DNA of 36,044 nucleotides from Thermodesulfobacteriales bacterium (GTDB lineage Bacteria > Desulfobacterota > Thermodesulfobacteria > Thermodesulfobacteriales > Thermodesulfatatoraceae). The notes beneath the pieces were generated by a model. That model worked only from the letters and a program-made list of their open reading frames with translations, did no database searches and had not been told where the DNA came from. Position numbers and translations under genes: made by a program. The stretch covers positions 1-36,044 of the forward strand of contig JALSKZ010000072.1 of assembly GCA_026988575.1 (NCBI GenBank), in the 5' to 3' direction. Below are positions 4,578 through 30,227 of the stretch, one piece after another. How positions within the stretch are numbered: position 1 is the first letter of the stretch; every line of letters begins with the position of its first letter.

Positions 4578-5201
4578 TTAGTTATTAATGGTTAAATAAT
4601 TCCGAGACTTAAAGCCCAAAAAACCAAACAAAAAAAGACTCAAACCCACGAGTAAGACAGAAGATGGTTCAGGAACAGGGGCATTTACAGGTGCAGAGAA
4701 AGTGATCACGTAATTTGCATCTTGGGTAAAAGCACTCCCATCCCAATAGGCCAATGGATCTTGATTCTGAGGGCCAAACTGCTGATCATAGGGCTGATTA
4801 GGAAAAATTAAGCCCGAAATGCTATAGGGATCCCAGTCAAAACTTGATATACCGAGGAAATAGATACCAGAATCAAGATTCGGATCATAAATACGCGCGT
4901 TCAAGGAAGAAACCTCGTCATCGTTGGCCCAAACGCCCACGCCATTTTCATCGAAGAGGAATAGCTGGGGATCATCACTGTAAGCCTTAATTTCCAAAGC
5001 ACCGCCACTCCAAGAAAAGACATATAGATCAGCGCCAGCAAATTCTGCCGTACCATGAATTTCCGTGGTCCCATTCACTAGAGACACTGCTGTATCTAAA
5101 GAATCGCCTGCATCGGAAGACTCATAGAAAGGAAGGCCATATACATTATTCAACCCCACCAAAAAAAACAAAAACCAAAAAAGACAAATTTTCCTAAACA
5201 T
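4578..5201 (-). CDS. Exported PEP-CTERM sorting-signal protein
   Basis: A 207-residue secreted protein. Residues about 1-22 form a signal peptide (ending VYG). The middle part (ADLYVFSWSGG..., LFLFDENGVGVWANDDE, LDSGIYFLGIS) resembles the beta-sandwich of DVUA0089/pre-peptidase C-terminal type proteins. The tail is a clear PEP-CTERM signal: VPEPSS, a hydrophobic helix (VLLVGLSLFLFGFLGF), then KSRN. Such tails are cut and sorted by an exosortase, usually in strains making exopolysaccharide. No exosortase gene lies in this window. An AGGAGG SD lies just upstream of the ATG. It is first gene of a unit with the alkaline phosphatase, hinting that both act at the envelope. Confidence 0.8.
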   Translation of the reverse strand: MFRKICLFWFLFFLVGLNNVYGLPFYESSDAGDSLDTAVSLVNGTTEIHGTAEFAGADLYVFSWSGGALEIKAYSDDPQLFLFDENGVGVWANDDEVSSLNARIYDPNLDSGIYFLGISSFDWDPYSISGLIFPNQPYDQQFGPQNQDPLAYWDGSAFTQDANYVITFSAPVNAPVPEPSSVLLVGLSLFLFGFLGFKSRNYLTINN

Positions 5202-15426: not shown

Positions 15427-15746
15427 ACTCCTCCGGCGTAAAACTTCTTTTATTACCAGAAGCACAAAACAGCTAACATCTGAAGTTTGTCATGGCAAGC
15501 GTTACCCTTTTTGGTCATGGCGAGCAAACGCATTTTTATGATAACCCAAAAAGGTAAAAATTAAAAAAGAAGATTAAAACCTACAGACTTTTGGGCTTTA
15601 GAGTATAATTGATTTGAGACCTTTGCAAAATTGTCGAGATCAGTGTTACAAGCACAAACGCAAGGGATCCGTTCCATTAAAATAGGAACGGGACTTAGAA
15701 AAGGTGTTTTGCAAAGGTCTCAAAATAAAAATTGGAAGGAGATACA
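15427..15746. other. Divergent intergenic region with repeat copy D
   Basis: 320 bp between coaE (-) and the M20 peptidase (+). It contains two near-identical GTCATGGC(A/G)AGC units at about 15489-15532, which resemble the widespread GTCATTGCGAGC-type dispersed repeat, then an A-rich stretch and the MITE-like element at 15616-15721. No gene is seen. Confidence 0.55.
15616..15721 (-). repeat. MITE-like inverted-repeat element, copy D (106 bp, reversed)
   Basis: Same ends GAGACCTTTGCAAAA / TTTTGCAAAGGTCTC, but its body is in the opposite orientation to copies A-C: on the minus strand it reads CACCTTTTCTAAGTCCCG, then the hairpin CGTTCC-loop-GGAACG, then GGATCCCTTGCG and GTAACACTGATCTCGACAA. 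It ends 25 bp before the start codon of the M20 peptidase, so it probably lies in that gene's leader or promoter. Confidence 0.85.
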
Positions 15747-16838
15747 TTGTCCCGCACAGCCGCCCTTCAAGCACGAATTAAAGAAACCATCTTTACCCTG
15801 GCCTCCATTCCCAGCCCTAGCGGACAAGAAGAGGCCATATTGGAATATCTTATCAACCGCCTGCAAGATCAGGGTTTTGGGCTTAAAACACAAGAAGTAC
15901 CCAATCGATTTTATAACATCATTGTAAACGAAGGACGCAATAATCCCCTTCTTCTTACCGCCCATGTAGACACTGTGCCCCCTTGGCTGGGGATTTTCCC
16001 CCCCCGTATACACGAAGATACGTTAGAAGGCCTCGGTGTATGTGACAATAAAGCGGGTGTAGCCCTTATGCTCTTACTCCTTGAAGAACGCAAACGCGAG
16101 GGAAAACCCATACCCGCTACTTTTGCCTTTGTGGTAGACGAAGAACGCGAAGGGGCAGGCTCTGCTACTCTAGCGCAAGGCTCCCTGCCTCCCTATGCTA
16201 TTGTCTTAGAGCCTACTAGTCTGGAGATCGCTATCGCGGAAGGGGGTTCGGTAGAGTTTGAAATACACGTTAAAGGTCGTTCTGTACACGGTAGTTGTCT
16301 TTCCGCGGGGATAAACGCCATTGAAAGGGCTATTGAATTGGTTACAGAAATCAAAAAACTCCCCTTTCTATACAGCGAACACCCCCTCTTAGGTCCTGGG
16401 GGATTTAACGTAGAAAAATTCTCCGGGGGAGATGGAGAACTAAGGGTACCAGACCTTTGTACCCTTGAAATAGATTTTCACGTATTACCAAATCAGGACA
16501 TTAACCAGATTATTCAAGAGATCAAAAACGTTTTAGAAAGAGATCCTTTAGTAAATTACGTGGTTAAGGATATCTCGGAGCCGTTTGCCCTTTCTGAAGA
16601 TACCCCTATTGTAAGCAATCTAGTCAGGGCCTTTCGTCAGGCCTTAAATAGAGAACCAAGGCTATCGGGGATGCGCAGTTGGACCGACGCCGCTCATTTA
16701 TATGCTGCAGGGGTTAAACCCGTAGTCTTTGGCCCGGGAGAGTTGGCCAAGTGTCATACTCCTGGAGAATGGATTTCTGTCAAAGAAGTGGTAGAGGCCT
16801 TTTGGGTATTGGATACCCTTCTAGATGACTTATCCTGA
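15747..16838 (+). CDS. M20-family zinc peptidase / deacylase
   Basis: 363 residues of the M20/ArgE-DapE amidohydrolase family, which hydrolyse peptides or N-acyl amino acids with two metal ions. Metal and catalytic motifs in order: LLTAHVDTVP (His, Asp), GVCDNKAGVAL (Asp), FVVDEEREGAGS (Glu-Glu), VLEPTS (Glu/Asp position), and C-terminal KCHTPGEWI (His). The dimerisation insert starts at EGGSVEFEIHVKGRSVHGS. A TTG at 15747 is chosen: GGAAGGAG lies 5-6 nt upstream, whereas the in-frame TTG at 15732 precedes that SD. Deacetylation in arginine or lysine synthesis is possible but not decided. Its last 85 bp overlap the opposite-strand GNAT gene. Confidence 0.88.
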   Translation: MSRTAALQARIKETIFTLASIPSPSGQEEAILEYLINRLQDQGFGLKTQEVPNRFYNIIVNEGRNNPLLLTAHVDTVPPWLGIFPPRIHEDTLEGLGVCDNKAGVALMLLLLEERKREGKPIPATFAFVVDEEREGAGSATLAQGSLPPYAIVLEPTSLEIAIAEGGSVEFEIHVKGRSVHGSCLSAGINAIERAIELVTEIKKLPFLYSEHPLLGPGGFNVEKFSGGDGELRVPDLCTLEIDFHVLPNQDINQIIQEIKNVLERDPLVNYVVKDISEPFALSEDTPIVSNLVRAFRQALNREPRLSGMRSWTDAAHLYAAGVKPVVFGPGELAKCHTPGEWISVKEVVEAFWVLDTLLDDLS

Positions 16839-17329
16839 AGGTCCAAATCTGTCTCCATACGAATCCAGGCCCCTTGCCTTGCGGTCTCTTTAAAACCTAT
16901 ATGGCGGTAAAATTGCTTGGCCCTTTCGTTCTTCTCTCCCACCCAAAGGGCTACCTTGGTATAGCCCTTCTCCTTTAAAAAGGAAAAGGCCTTTTGCATC
17001 AGCTGATACGCAATATTTTTCCCCTGGAAAAGGGGAGTTACCACCAACTCGTGGATTTCAGGGACCGTTTCCCTCTGAAAACGACAATCTGGTTGCAAGG
17101 CCAAAAAACCAACAGGAACATCATCGCAAAAAGCAACCCAAAAGCCACCCTGAGAGTGCTTTAATAACCAACGCAAATAACGTTTGACCCGTTTGGGATC
17201 ACGATAAGCATAAAGATAATCTTCACCATAGGCCTCTAAATAAAGTTTCTTTAACTCCTCAAAAAGGCCTTCAAGAGAAGATAATTGTTTTATTTCTATA
17301 GGTTTAGAAATGTCCATGCGGGGAAGCAA
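16754..17329 (-). CDS. GNAT-family N-acetyltransferase with antisense-encoded tail
   Basis: 191 residues. A GNAT core is seen: PVGFLALQPDC (beta-4), IHELVVTPLFQGKNIAYQLMQKAFSFL (acetyl-CoA loop, with Q-G-K-N-I-A in place of the usual Q/R-x-x-G-x-G/A) and NERAKQFYRHIGFKETARQGAWIRMETDL. The domain ends near residue 165; the remaining about 26 residues (DKSSRRVSNTQK...) are polar, unlike the family, and encoded opposite the end of the M20 gene. The TTG at 17329 starts one base after the preceding stop codon; ATG 17317 is an alternative. No clear SD. It is the last gene of the acyltransferase trio. Confidence 0.8.
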   Translation of the reverse strand: MLPRMDISKPIEIKQLSSLEGLFEELKKLYLEAYGEDYLYAYRDPKRVKRYLRWLLKHSQGGFWVAFCDDVPVGFLALQPDCRFQRETVPEIHELVVTPLFQGKNIAYQLMQKAFSFLKEKGYTKVALWVGEKNERAKQFYRHIGFKETARQGAWIRMETDLDLQDKSSRRVSNTQKASTTSLTEIHSPGV

Positions 17330-17330
17330 A

Positions 17331-18173
17331 CTAAATTAAAAGATCTGCGTGCTTTGACGACACGGAAAAATCCGCCCATTCCTTAGTAAGGTTGTACAGA
17401 TAACCAAAATAAGCCCTCTCTTCTTCGGAAAGAGTAACCCAAAAATTGGTTTTTTCCAGAAAGAAAAAGACAAAATCTTCCTTTTTTAAACGAGCAGTAG
17501 AAATCACCTTCAGGTCGAGAGGCAAAGGATCCTCCAGGAGAAACTTATATAGATTTTGGTCTTCAGAAACCCTTTTAAAGGCTTGTGCATAGACTCGAGG
17601 TACCTCTTCCAAATTCAGATGGATCAAGACAGTATATCCCCCCTGGGAGCAAGAGGCACAGGCCCTTAGCGGCCCCAACCTTCTAAACAAAAAGACCTTC
17701 TCGAAAAAAGCTGCTTCTTTAGGAACGACACATAAAATTAAATCTGTAGCTCCCTGTATCACGGCATAGCGATAAAGTACTCTAAACAAGTGAAAAAACT
17801 CTACGGAGGCCCGTGCTTTATTAGAAACCAAAGAGACCATATGTATGAATTCTACCAGATAACGTCCTTTACCTCGCAATTTATCAATATAATCTTTATA
17901 AAGCTGATCCGCAGGCAAACCCATCTCCACCGAATCAAACACCACGGTACCTGTAGTAAAAAAAGAATCAGGTACCAGAGAAGAGAGGAGGACTCTGGTC
18001 TCGGGTAAGGCATGGTGGGGAGAAAAACACAAATTTGACGGAGATACTTCTTTGATCTTCGTCCCCTTGCTACAGCGACAAATTAAAGAAAAGGCCTGTT
18101 CGAAATCTTCACGCGCCTGCGCTGGTTTCAGATATACCTTCTGGTAAAGATTACACGGCCAAAGCCAGGGCAC
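17331..18173 (-). CDS. FeeM-like N-acyltransferase paralogue, diverged copy
   Basis: 280 residues, clearly related to the preceding gene (18175-18990). Shared pattern: HALPETRVL, GTVVFDSVEMGLPADQLYKDYIDKLRG, FFHLFRVLYRYAVIQGATDLILCVVP, FEKVFLFRRLG. This is the layout of FeeM-type N-acyl amino acid synthases (GNAT fold, related to AHL synthases). Compared with its sister, the PKHxxFYE segment is changed to PKEAAFFE, and the N-terminal about 60 residues diverge with several Cys. GTG start with GGAGG 7 nt upstream, 1 nt after the sister's stop codon. It may have a new substrate or a partner role. Confidence 0.65.
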   Translation of the reverse strand: MPWLWPCNLYQKVYLKPAQAREDFEQAFSLICRCSKGTKIKEVSPSNLCFSPHHALPETRVLLSSLVPDSFFTTGTVVFDSVEMGLPADQLYKDYIDKLRGKGRYLVEFIHMVSLVSNKARASVEFFHLFRVLYRYAVIQGATDLILCVVPKEAAFFEKVFLFRRLGPLRACASCSQGGYTVLIHLNLEEVPRVYAQAFKRVSEDQNLYKFLLEDPLPLDLKVISTARLKKEDFVFFFLEKTNFWVTLSEEERAYFGYLYNLTKEWADFSVSSKHADLLI

Positions 18174-18174
18174 C

Positions 18175-18990
18175 TTAGGCCTCCGCGGTCTTTTTTATCT
18201 CGGATAAATTCGTAAAGTAATTAACATCTTTGAACGAAAAATTCAAAAAATTTATGTTGGTCTGTCTTATATACGAAAACATTTTTTCTTCAGGTAACCC
18301 TTTGGTTTTAAAGAAATGATAAAGGTTGTATTCCGCAGGAAAATTTTTATAGGCACGCCAGTAGCGCGCAGGGGCCTCGGTAAGAGAAAGATATTCTAAG
18401 GTAAAAGAAGTCTGAAACTGTAAGTGTGCACGCCTTTCCCCTACCCTTTCAAAGAGCAAAATACGTTCGTAAAAATCTGCGTGTTTAGGATGAATAGCAA
18501 TAACCAGCCCCTCTGCCCCACAAAATAAGGCGTAACGATAAAGAATGCGAAATAGGTGAAATAAGGTATTGCGTGCCTTCATATCTTTCCGCGAGGCCAG
18601 AGAAAAAATCTCTGCCAACTTCTGCTTGCCCCGCAGATCATCTAAGACATCTTTATACAGGACATCTGAGGGTAAACCTGTAATACCATCAAAAACAATA
18701 CCCGCCACACTCTCTGGACCTTCTTCACCTATGTAGGTGCCAAAAAAGCGTGTCTCCGGCAAAAAATGATAGGGGGTAGTCCAAAAAGAAGCTGTCTTAT
18801 CCAGCAAACCAACTTCTACGTAACGCTCGTATACCAAACGCCAATATTCAAAGAGAGAAGGTGGCGTTAAAGCCGCCTTTACGCGAATCTCACCCATTAA
18901 TACCTCGTGGGTACGGGTAAGTTTCAAGCGGCGCAAACGCCACCAATCTTCTTCAGAAAGTCCTTTTCTATAATCTTTTTTCCGAAACAT
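18175..18990 (-). CDS. FeeM-like N-acyltransferase (GNAT fold)
   Basis: 271 residues. Family marks: YWRLVYERYVEVGLLD (the RYxVYVE-like entry), YHFLPETRFFGTYIG, VAGIVFDGITGLPSDVLYKDVLDDLRG, LAEIFSLASRKDMKARNTLFHLFRILYRYALFCG, IAIHPKHADFYERILLFERVGE. These match FeeM-like N-acyl amino acid synthases, which join an acyl chain (often from acyl-ACP) to an amine; related proteins occur with PEP-CTERM/exosortase systems. Product here is unknown. It lies 100 bp after aroB, and a gap that size could hold its own promoter. It is followed tightly by its paralogue and a GNAT gene. Confidence 0.7.
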   Translation of the reverse strand: MFRKKDYRKGLSEEDWWRLRRLKLTRTHEVLMGEIRVKAALTPPSLFEYWRLVYERYVEVGLLDKTASFWTTPYHFLPETRFFGTYIGEEGPESVAGIVFDGITGLPSDVLYKDVLDDLRGKQKLAEIFSLASRKDMKARNTLFHLFRILYRYALFCGAEGLVIAIHPKHADFYERILLFERVGERRAHLQFQTSFTLEYLSLTEAPARYWRAYKNFPAEYNLYHFFKTKGLPEEKMFSYIRQTNINFLNFSFKDVNYFTNLSEIKKTAEA

Positions 18991-19090
18991 AATAATTTAT
19001 GCCTCTCTTTCCCATCAAGTCACCCTCTCAGACAACTACTTTATTATTTCTATTCGGCAATCTCTTTAAAAACAATCAATATGGCTCTAT

Positions 19091-20176
19091 TTACACAGTC
19101 TTTAGATCTTCTAATACCTTTTGAATCGTTTCTTGAGGGGGATCTTCATAAAAGACGAACTTACCTATTTCTTTAAGCAACACAAGGGTCAGCTTACCCT
19201 GCCATACTTTTTTATCTTTGCTAAGATAAGTCATAATATCCGCAACTGAAACGGAACGGGGAATCCTCACCGGGAGCCCTAAGTTCTTTAGTAAAGATTC
19301 AATGCGGTGAGCTAGGCCCAAAGAGCCTATACCTAGTATTTCCGAAATTCTTGCTGCAGCCACCATACCAATAGAGACACAAAAACCGTGCAGCAACTTA
19401 TATTTGGCAGCAGCTTCTAGGGCATGGCCTATTGTGTGTCCAAAATTTAATACCCGACGCAGCCCTCCTTCCTTTTCATCTTGAGAGACAATTTCTGCTT
19501 TAATACGACAACTCTCGTATATGAGGTGTTCCAAGTCATCGGCATTGTAGGCCAAAATGGCTTCAGCCTGTTCTTCTAGAAAAGAAAATAAATAAGAGTT
19601 CCAGATACAACCATATTTTACCACCTCAGCCAGTCCGTTTTTCAGGTGCTCCAAAGGCAAAGTAGTCAATACACCGTAGTCAATGTAAACCCGACGGGGC
19701 TGATAAAATGTACCCAAAAGATTTTTGCCTTCGGGCAAATCAACACCGGTCTTCCCTCCTACCGAACTATCTACTTGTGCTAAGAGACTGGTAGGTACTT
19801 GCACATAAGGAATACCGCGCAAATAAATAGAAGCCAAAAAACCGGCTAAATCTCCGGTTACACCCCCTCCCAAGGCCACCACCGCACATTTGCGATCAAA
19901 ACCACTTTGGAGCATCTGACGGGCAAGAAAAACTACCGTATCTATATTTTTGGATTCTTCGCCTGCCGGAAAGGTAAATAAGTGTGCAGACAGACCCGCC
20001 TCTTCCAAGAGCCTTACCAAGTCTTCCCCCAGGAGATGGGCCACATTACTGTCAGAAATAACGGCAAACCGACGGGCCAAATCCAGGACTTTGATGTTTT
20101 CAGGAATATCAGTGAGTAATCCTCCAGCGATTAGTATATCGTAAGGGCTGCCGGTCTTTACCCGAATACGCCGCAT
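19091..20176 (-). CDS. aroB: 3-dehydroquinate synthase
   Basis: Converts DAHP to 3-dehydroquinate, the second step of the shikimate pathway. 361 residues, normal length. NAD+ and metal motifs: FPAGEESKNIDTV, ALGGGVTGDLAGFLASIYLRGI (about 97-118), VPTSLLAQVDSSVGGKTGVDLPEGKNLLGTFYQP, GLAEVVKYG, and the zinc ligands in LNFGHTIGHALE. The ATG overlaps the trpA stop (TAATG), so it is translationally coupled to trpBA. Confidence 0.97.
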   Translation of the reverse strand: MRRIRVKTGSPYDILIAGGLLTDIPENIKVLDLARRFAVISDSNVAHLLGEDLVRLLEEAGLSAHLFTFPAGEESKNIDTVVFLARQMLQSGFDRKCAVVALGGGVTGDLAGFLASIYLRGIPYVQVPTSLLAQVDSSVGGKTGVDLPEGKNLLGTFYQPRRVYIDYGVLTTLPLEHLKNGLAEVVKYGCIWNSYLFSFLEEQAEAILAYNADDLEHLIYESCRIKAEIVSQDEKEGGLRRVLNFGHTIGHALEAAAKYKLLHGFCVSIGMVAAARISEILGIGSLGLAHRIESLLKNLGLPVRIPRSVSVADIMTYLSKDKKVWQGKLTLVLLKEIGKFVFYEDPPQETIQKVLEDLKTV

Positions 20177-29225: not shown

Positions 29226-30227
29226 CTAACGCCAAAACCTTCCCTGCACAACGCTACCAGGAGGTATTTTTACCTGCCTTAAGATTGATCCAGGCTGCAA
29301 TTCAGCACCATTTCCTACTACCACGTCTTCGAGGTACGAAAAGCTACCAATGCGACACTGTTCACCTATTAGGGTCTCTCCTCGCAAGACGGTATGGGGA
29401 AAAACAATAGTGCCTGCCCCTAGGCGGACTCGACGTTCCAGATAGATAGTTTCAGGACAAATAAGGCTGACACCCTGTTGCATAAATTTACGTCTGAGAC
29501 GTTGCTGATAAATCTCCTCTGCTTGAGCTAGATCTTCCTGACTATTAATACCAATAACCTCTGTAGGGTCAGAAACCTGAAGCGCAAAGACCCTTTCGTT
29601 CCTTTTCACCGCTCGTTCCACCACGTCGGTAAGATAATATTCCCCCTGAACGTTATCAGGGGTAATCTCCTCCAGGGCCTCAAATAAAAAGCTTGCCTTA
29701 AAAACGTAAGTACCGGTATTTATCTCCCGCACCCTCTTTTCTTCAGGCGAGGCCTCCTTTTCCTCTACGATCTTGGCCACATATCCCTCCTGGTTCCTGA
29801 TTATCCGACCGTAACCATAAGGATCATCAACCAAGGCGGTAAGTATAGTGATTGTAGAGGCCTCCCTACAGTGAGCGGCTAAAAGTCTAGAAAGCGTGGC
29901 CGTCGACAGTAAGGGCGTGTCTCCGCACAAGACCAAAACATCTTTATTTAGATCACCCAAAAAGGGTCTGACTTTCTTCACCGCATCACCGGTACCAAGC
30001 TGTTTTTCTTGAAGAATAGTTTTGACCGCATAACCTCTAAGGGCTTCCTCTACCAAAGAAGATTTAAAGCCCACCACTACAAAGATATCCTTTATAGGCA
30101 AAGGTAATACCGTTTCCACAACGTGGATTACCAAAGGCTCACCCGCCAAAAGGTGTAAAACCTTAGGATAAGGCGAGCGCATGCGCGTCCCCTTACCAGC
30201 GGCCAAAATAATTACCGAAACAGACAT
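29226..30227 (-). CDS. glmU: Short GlmU: UDP-GlcNAc pyrophosphorylase lacking the acetyltransferase domain
   Basis: 333 residues against about 450 for full GlmU. Uridyltransferase half complete: LAAGKGTRMRSPYPKVLH (about 8-25), QEKQLGTGDAV, VLVLCGDTPLL, DDPYGYGRIIR, INTGTYVF, NVQGEYYLTDVV and the Asn/Asp of VIGINSQEDLA. After about residue 255 only a few left-handed beta-helix turns remain (RVRLGAGTIVFPHTVLRGET, IGSFSYLEDVVVGNGAELQPG), then a stop; the C-terminal acetyl-CoA/GlcN-1-P site is absent. Only 52 bp separate it from the next gene, and no missing part is seen there. It would make UDP-GlcNAc from GlcNAc-1-P; acetylation must occur elsewhere. Confidence 0.9.
   Translation of the reverse strand: MSVSVIILAAGKGTRMRSPYPKVLHLLAGEPLVIHVVETVLPLPIKDIFVVVGFKSSLVEEALRGYAVKTILQEKQLGTGDAVKKVRPFLGDLNKDVLVLCGDTPLLSTATLSRLLAAHCREASTITILTALVDDPYGYGRIIRNQEGYVAKIVEEKEASPEEKRVREINTGTYVFKASFLFEALEEITPDNVQGEYYLTDVVERAVKRNERVFALQVSDPTEVIGINSQEDLAQAEEIYQQRLRRKFMQQGVSLICPETIYLERRVRLGAGTIVFPHTVLRGETLIGEQCRIGSFSYLEDVVVGNGAELQPGSILRQVKIPPGSVVQGRFWR

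Follow-up and report, generated by a model that had tools for sequence, protein, structure and literature searches.

It is probable that the two adjacent genes FeeM-1 and FeeM-2 are old, strongly diverged FeeM paralogues, most likely N-acylating amino acids, which, as far as the sampling goes, only this lineage has between aroB and a GNAT gene that is unrelated to them. The window (the whole stretch of 36,044 nucleotides that was analyzed) is from Thermodesulfobacteriales bacterium, assembly GCA_026988575.1, contig JALSKZ010000072.1, positions 1–36,044 of the forward strand. Directly supported are the family and the fold of the two proteins, the catalytic glutamate in both of them, the tight spacing of their genes, and the absence of the pair from this place in nine relatives. 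Acyl-ACP-dependent N-acylation of an amino acid by the pair is predicted: in the most likely reaction of FeeM-1 and FeeM-2, an amino acid would receive a long fatty acyl chain on its amino group. The product would, with less certainty, be an N-acyl amino acid of the cell surface or of a membrane, which proteins encoded at other places in the genome may modify and export (ThiF on contig C83, an oxidase-like protein on contig C20, and MMPL, DUF1302, and LolA on contig C74). The pair consists of further FeeM-type synthases of an already known type, and its one unusual trait is that motif B is altered in FeeM-2.

Locus, family, and fold of the two proteins

FeeM-1 (18175–18990, minus strand, 271 residues, ATG start), an FeeM-type N-acyl amino acid synthase, is followed by its diverged paralogue FeeM-2 (17331–18173, minus strand, 280 residues, GTG start) and then by a gene for a GNAT-family acetyltransferase (16754–17329, minus strand, 191 residues as listed, although translation more probably starts at the ATG at 17317 than at the TTG of the listing). 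The gaps between these reading frames are ∼1 to 13 bp. The preliminary description had assigned all three genes to 17331–18990; the three same-strand reading frames, with the GNAT directly after the pair, are indeed present, but this interval spans only the FeeM genes, and the GNAT gene is below it. The GTG of FeeM-2 is one base past the stop codon of FeeM-1, and a Shine–Dalgarno-like GGAGG (18180–18184, minus strand, read from the sequence), six bases upstream of this GTG, is within the 3' end of FeeM-1, so that the two proteins are probably translationally coupled. On the far side of the insertion point is the gene that we take, on our own reading of the sequence, to be aroB (19091–20176, minus strand), whose orthologue adjoins the GNAT gene in relatives. 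The gene of an M20-type ArgE/DapE-like deacylase (15732–16838, plus strand; TIGR01910, 1.7e-53, which is below the curated cut-off) is convergent with the GNAT gene, and their 3' ends overlap by 85 bp (16754–16838); the overlap is alike, 85 to 94 bp, in the two relatives checked (loci L072 and L073).

The GC3 of the FeeM pair is 0.40 to 0.42, and both codon use and GC3 resemble those of the neighbors, such that the composition gives no sign of a recent foreign origin. Promoter and terminator scans yield nothing decisive, promoter-like sites being no commoner than in shuffled sequences and terminator-like sites numbering seven against a mean of 3.2. Elsewhere in the window, a GlmU-like protein of 333 residues (29226–30227) matches the bifunctional enzyme only up to about position 326, and most of the acetyltransferase domain is missing.

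The FeeM-like family proposed for both genes is confirmed by the Pfam FeeM profile PF21926 (cut-off 27 bits), which is matched by FeeM-1 with 109.4 bits (2e-31) and by FeeM-2 with 87.1 bits (1.4e-24), and FeeM-1 also matches FeeM (PDB entry: 2g0b) on sequence (5.4e-6). The two proteins are 32% identical across 243 aligned residues, in agreement with the strong divergence noted before. AlphaFold (AF2) models, built from 12-sequence alignments, have mean pLDDT values of 84.3 (FeeM-1) and 87.1 (FeeM-2), and both have a GNAT-like fold that is closest to FeeM 2g0b. The Foldseek comparison with 2g0b gives E values of 7e-13 for FeeM-1 (TM-score normalized by target of 0.84 for 2g0b_D) and 7e-11 for FeeM-2 (0.82); for each protein the top six matches are all 2g0b, with TM-scores normalized by target of 0.79 to 0.86, and 2g0b ranks above the AHL synthases and the ordinary GNATs.

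In common with FeeM, both window proteins have the fold, the catalytic glutamate, and the GLPxD-xxY segment, and FeeM-1 also has the PKHxxFY motif. They differ from FeeM in being longer, with a C-terminal helical part, and in that the identity in fold alignments is 24 to 25% for FeeM-1 and 16 to 19% for FeeM-2. In NCBIfam, each protein matches nothing but the N-terminal part of PRK14852, with scores far below the cut-off for the whole fusion. PRK14852 and PRK14851 (NF011425 and NF011424) are fusions of FeeM-like, ThiF, and nitroreductase parts, whereas the window proteins are single-domain proteins without ThiF or nitroreductase neighbors. Membership of the pair in exosort_acyl, the PEP-CTERM-linked acyltransferase family (TIGR03694), is ruled out, there being no match to either protein at E values up to 1.

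FeeM clusters elsewhere in the phylum

Relatives of FeeM-2 (E values up to 1e-12) are found in 24 of the 395 genomes of the phylum sample, and sets of several FeeM genes are frequent among the FeeM-positive ones. Diverged FeeM pairs recur in three families (f20, f24, and f72), and some Thermodesulfatator genomes have two or three FeeM genes. In several such sets the neighbors are genes for ThiF, an FMN nitroreductase-type oxidase, an MMPL transporter, DUF1302, and a LolA-like protein, and an MMPL gene is present in all 11 FeeM-positive genomes of the order that were searched and in neither of the two FeeM-negative ones. One or two FeeM genes are together with those of a LolA-like protein, DUF1302, ThiF, and MMPL at L046 (4084–10819), L047 (1756–10851), L132 (2–9302), L128 (1–8929), and L133 (852–5022); a nitroreductase-type oxidase is present in some of these five clusters, which are from several families. 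It looks as if such clusters make an acyl-oxazolone-type lipid that is sent to the outer membrane. The genes accompanying FeeM in these conserved clusters are elsewhere, and, contrary to the earlier proposal, the window is not the strongest candidate for a pathway that has yet to be described.

By analogy, the FeeM clusters resemble acyl-oxazolone, N-acyl-dehydrotyrosine, and stieleriacine-type systems. Acyl-oxazolone pathways have been described (PMC10404671, PMC12856293), as have stieleriacine-type clusters (PMC12479983), and in S. maiorica four synthase genes share a single region (PMC10404671, PMC12856293, PMC12479983). TyzA is an acyltransferase, TyzB a ThiF protein, and TyzC an oxidase of the nitroreductase family, and mmpL9 is close by (PMC10404671). 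An acyltransferase of the FeeM fold is common to the window pair and to the Oxz/Tyz/Trz pathways and stieleriacine-type N-acyl tyrosine clusters, and other FeeM clusters of the phylum also have ThiF, the nitroreductase-type oxidase, and MMPL; the window pair, in contrast, stands alone, no ThiF cyclase or nitroreductase-type oxidase being found among the window neighbors scanned, and the host lineage is anaerobic. At L037 (5333–7174), a class I methyltransferase is fused to a nitroreductase-type oxidase; the fusion protein, encoded next to three FeeM genes, is reminiscent of the methyltransferase in the stieleriacine clusters. The genome of the window has two further FeeM genes, on contigs C27 and C83; on the latter (L031, 6901–9353), 0.8 kb separates a PRK14851-type ThiF gene from an FeeM gene that is highly diverged (end branch of ∼2).

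It is possible, if somewhat unlikely, that the pair supplies, in trans, an Oxz/Tyz-type pathway to acyl-oxazolones or N-acyl-dehydroamino acids; this is compatible with N-acylation of amino acids by the pair. The conservation in the phylum of the clusters of FeeM with ThiF, the oxidase, and MMPL points this way, as do the proximity of ThiF and FeeM on contig C83, the MMPL–DUF1302–LolA operon on contig C74, and a weak oxidase match on contig C20 (32% identity). However, no ThiF, oxidase, or MMPL–DUF1302–LolA genes are found in the window, and the FeeM of contig C83 is the nearer candidate for the ThiF on that contig. Moreover, the described desaturation needs O2, whereas the host lineage is anaerobic (the known Thermodesulfatator being strict anaerobes), and the chemistry may differ.

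A PEP-CTERM system had also been reported in the window. One PEP-CTERM-tailed protein is encoded there (4578–5201, minus strand; PF07589, 22.5 bits, cut-off 20.7), whose sequence also matches the DVUA0089 family NF038127 (31.7 bits, cut-off 29), but no exosortase is found in the window, and the only hit in the genome is on contig C59. FeeM genes and exosortase do co-occur in the relatives sampled, exosortase being present in 12 of 13 FeeM-positive genomes and in 8 of the 47 remaining ones; when families are counted instead, these numbers become 3/4 and 5/18 (p = 0.12), and therefore relatedness explains much of the co-occurrence. A link between N-acyl amino acid synthases and exosortase is attributed to Craig et al. 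2011 where that work is cited in PMC4897644. The near-constant presence of exosortase in the FeeM-positive genomes recalls exosort_acyl, although the window proteins do not match this family, and a search of 13 genomes with TIGR03694 gives no match at 0.01. PEP-CTERM-tailed proteins are encoded near FeeM-cluster genes in several relatives. Beside FeeM, oxidase, or MMPL genes in five relatives are those at L037 (7443–8384), L039 (2259–3167), L035 (6081–6977), L046 (3135–4052), and L168 (2482–3375), two of which are PEP-CTERM by Pfam and one by its visible tail, the others being assigned by similarity to these three.

Active sites and the altered motif B of FeeM-2

The active-site residues have been compared in 53 distinct homologues sampled from the phylum, both window proteins included. 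A glutamate is aligned with Glu95 of FeeM in all 53 sequences, being Glu127 in FeeM-1 (in the motif LAE) and Glu108 in FeeM-2. Glu95 is the proposed catalytic residue of FeeM, and the equivalent Glu103 of Nas354 is needed for activity (PMC4897644). Tyr149 of FeeM is also listed among the active-site residues (PMC9654057, Table 1). Motif B is intact in FeeM-1 (HPKHADFYE). The PKHxxFY segment had been described as lost in the second gene; it is alignable and altered to PKEAAFF, with Glu153 in place of the histidine and Phe157 in place of the tyrosine. The PKHxxFY pattern is a regularity found here and is not a published membership rule: the motif-B histidine is present in 51 and the tyrosine in 52 of the 53 homologues, FeeM-2 being the only one without the tyrosine and one of two without the histidine.

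The aligned tyrosine is the general acid in many GNAT-superfamily enzymes, in which it protonates the leaving thiolate. Because FeeM-2 is without this tyrosine, we infer that its rate, substrate, or role has changed, and, since two near-invariant positions of motif B are changed and its branch is long, it may not catalyze the family reaction. FeeM-1 would be the fully competent enzyme.

That FeeM-2 is a noncatalytic or specificity-giving partner, working in complex with FeeM-1, is unlikely. This division of labor would fit the changes in motif B, the overlapping translation signals of the two genes, and the distribution of the conserved parts, as FeeM-2 keeps the fold and a long C-terminal helical domain (C-terminal profile score of 46 bits), whereas FeeM-1 keeps motif B and has this C-terminal part shortened (29 bits). 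Pairs of a long and a short FeeM are also present in f20 genomes and in two same-family relatives (G004 and G005), but both members of other FeeM pairs keep the tyrosine and the histidine, and FeeM-2 retains the catalytic glutamate, a residue that would be dispensable in a dead partner. We regard it as quite unlikely that FeeM-2 forms a two-part synthase with FeeM-1, or has a changed acceptor or thioester chemistry, such that the product would be outside the known N-acyl amino acids.

Gene order at aroB and origin of the pair

The GNAT protein is a clear member of Acetyltransf_1 (70.5 bits, 1.9e-19, cut-off 20.7), and its nearest solved relative is PH1933 (PDB entry: 1wwz; 9.7e-21). Gene order has been compared in nine same-family relatives (G001–G009) and in one genome of another family (G010). 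In all nine same-family relatives, the GNAT orthologue (58–64% identity) adjoins aroB or is one gene away from it, and the convergent M20 gene follows wherever the contig continues (in G001 the contig stops inside the GNAT orthologue). No FeeM gene is found between aroB and GNAT in any of the nine: in G001, G008, and G009 there is nothing between them, and in G002 to G007 there is one opposite-strand gene, coding for ∼471 to 498 residues and metallophosphoesterase-like in the one example scanned. In G010, the GNAT–M20 pair is present without an adjoining aroB, which follows trpB–trpA both there and in the window. The FeeM genes of Thermodesulfatator and of G010 are elsewhere, and the flanks that were examined contain no relative of the window GNAT. 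What separates aroB from GNAT (18990–19091 in the window, with equivalents in L072–L080) differs with the lineage: the two FeeM genes in one, a metallophosphoesterase-like gene in some, and no gene at all in others.

Since the aroB–GNAT order is kept in relatives with no FeeM gene between the two, the trio is not a pathway unit, and the proposal that it is a conserved one fails, the same three genes being together in none of the nine same-family relatives and the aroB–GNAT–M20 order of relatives without FeeM at this place ruling it out. The simplest history is that of an old GNAT–M20 pair, which later came to be beside aroB and was followed by lineage-specific insertions between aroB and GNAT. 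It is very improbable that the three genes are an operon making and then modifying an N-acyl amino acid, with the GNAT as tailoring enzyme. The common strand and short gaps would make cotranscription through the GNAT gene likely, and cotranscription with the FeeM pair today is possible; against the operon are the three relatives in which aroB and GNAT are direct neighbors, the six with another, opposite-strand gene, the GNAT–M20 pair even in another family, and the FeeM flanks of Thermodesulfatator and G010. Most likely, the GNAT takes no part with the FeeM pair. Synthesis of an acyl-homoserine lactone-type cell-to-cell signal by the pair is extremely improbable. AHL synthases share the fold and are present in the Foldseek list, but the best of them has an E value of 8e-6 against 7e-11 for FeeM, and when the pair was scanned against Pfam and NCBIfam at E values up to 1, no AHL-synthase family was found.

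Among the relatives sampled, only the genome of the window has an FeeM pair at the aroB–GNAT place, and no same-genus relative of this genome has been found. In two trees (support of 95/85 and 91/90), FeeM-1 is placed together with the one short FeeM of Thermodesulfatator, whose gene adjoins lepA and lepB; an FeeM gene at this place in the window's genome is ruled out, a DUF4124 protein being encoded there instead. FeeM-2 has a long branch (1.77) and no supported placement; a clade of FeeM-1 and FeeM-2 alone is neither supported nor rejected (p-AU 0.079), and the grouping of FeeM-2 with the C27 clade is rejected (p-AU 0.011).

With the recognition of these old FeeM paralogues, a tempting false lead is removed, as the neighboring GNAT is very probably no tailoring enzyme. 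The FeeM-type synthases are extended to a lineage related to heat-loving sulfate reducers, which has several diverged copies per genome, and the clusters of FeeM, in many cases as a pair, with ThiF, oxidase, MMPL, DUF1302, LolA, and sometimes a PEP-CTERM protein are the better target for relating N-acyl amino acids to the outer membrane and the exosortase system. FeeM-2 itself is a natural variant that tests the role of the histidine and the tyrosine of motif B.
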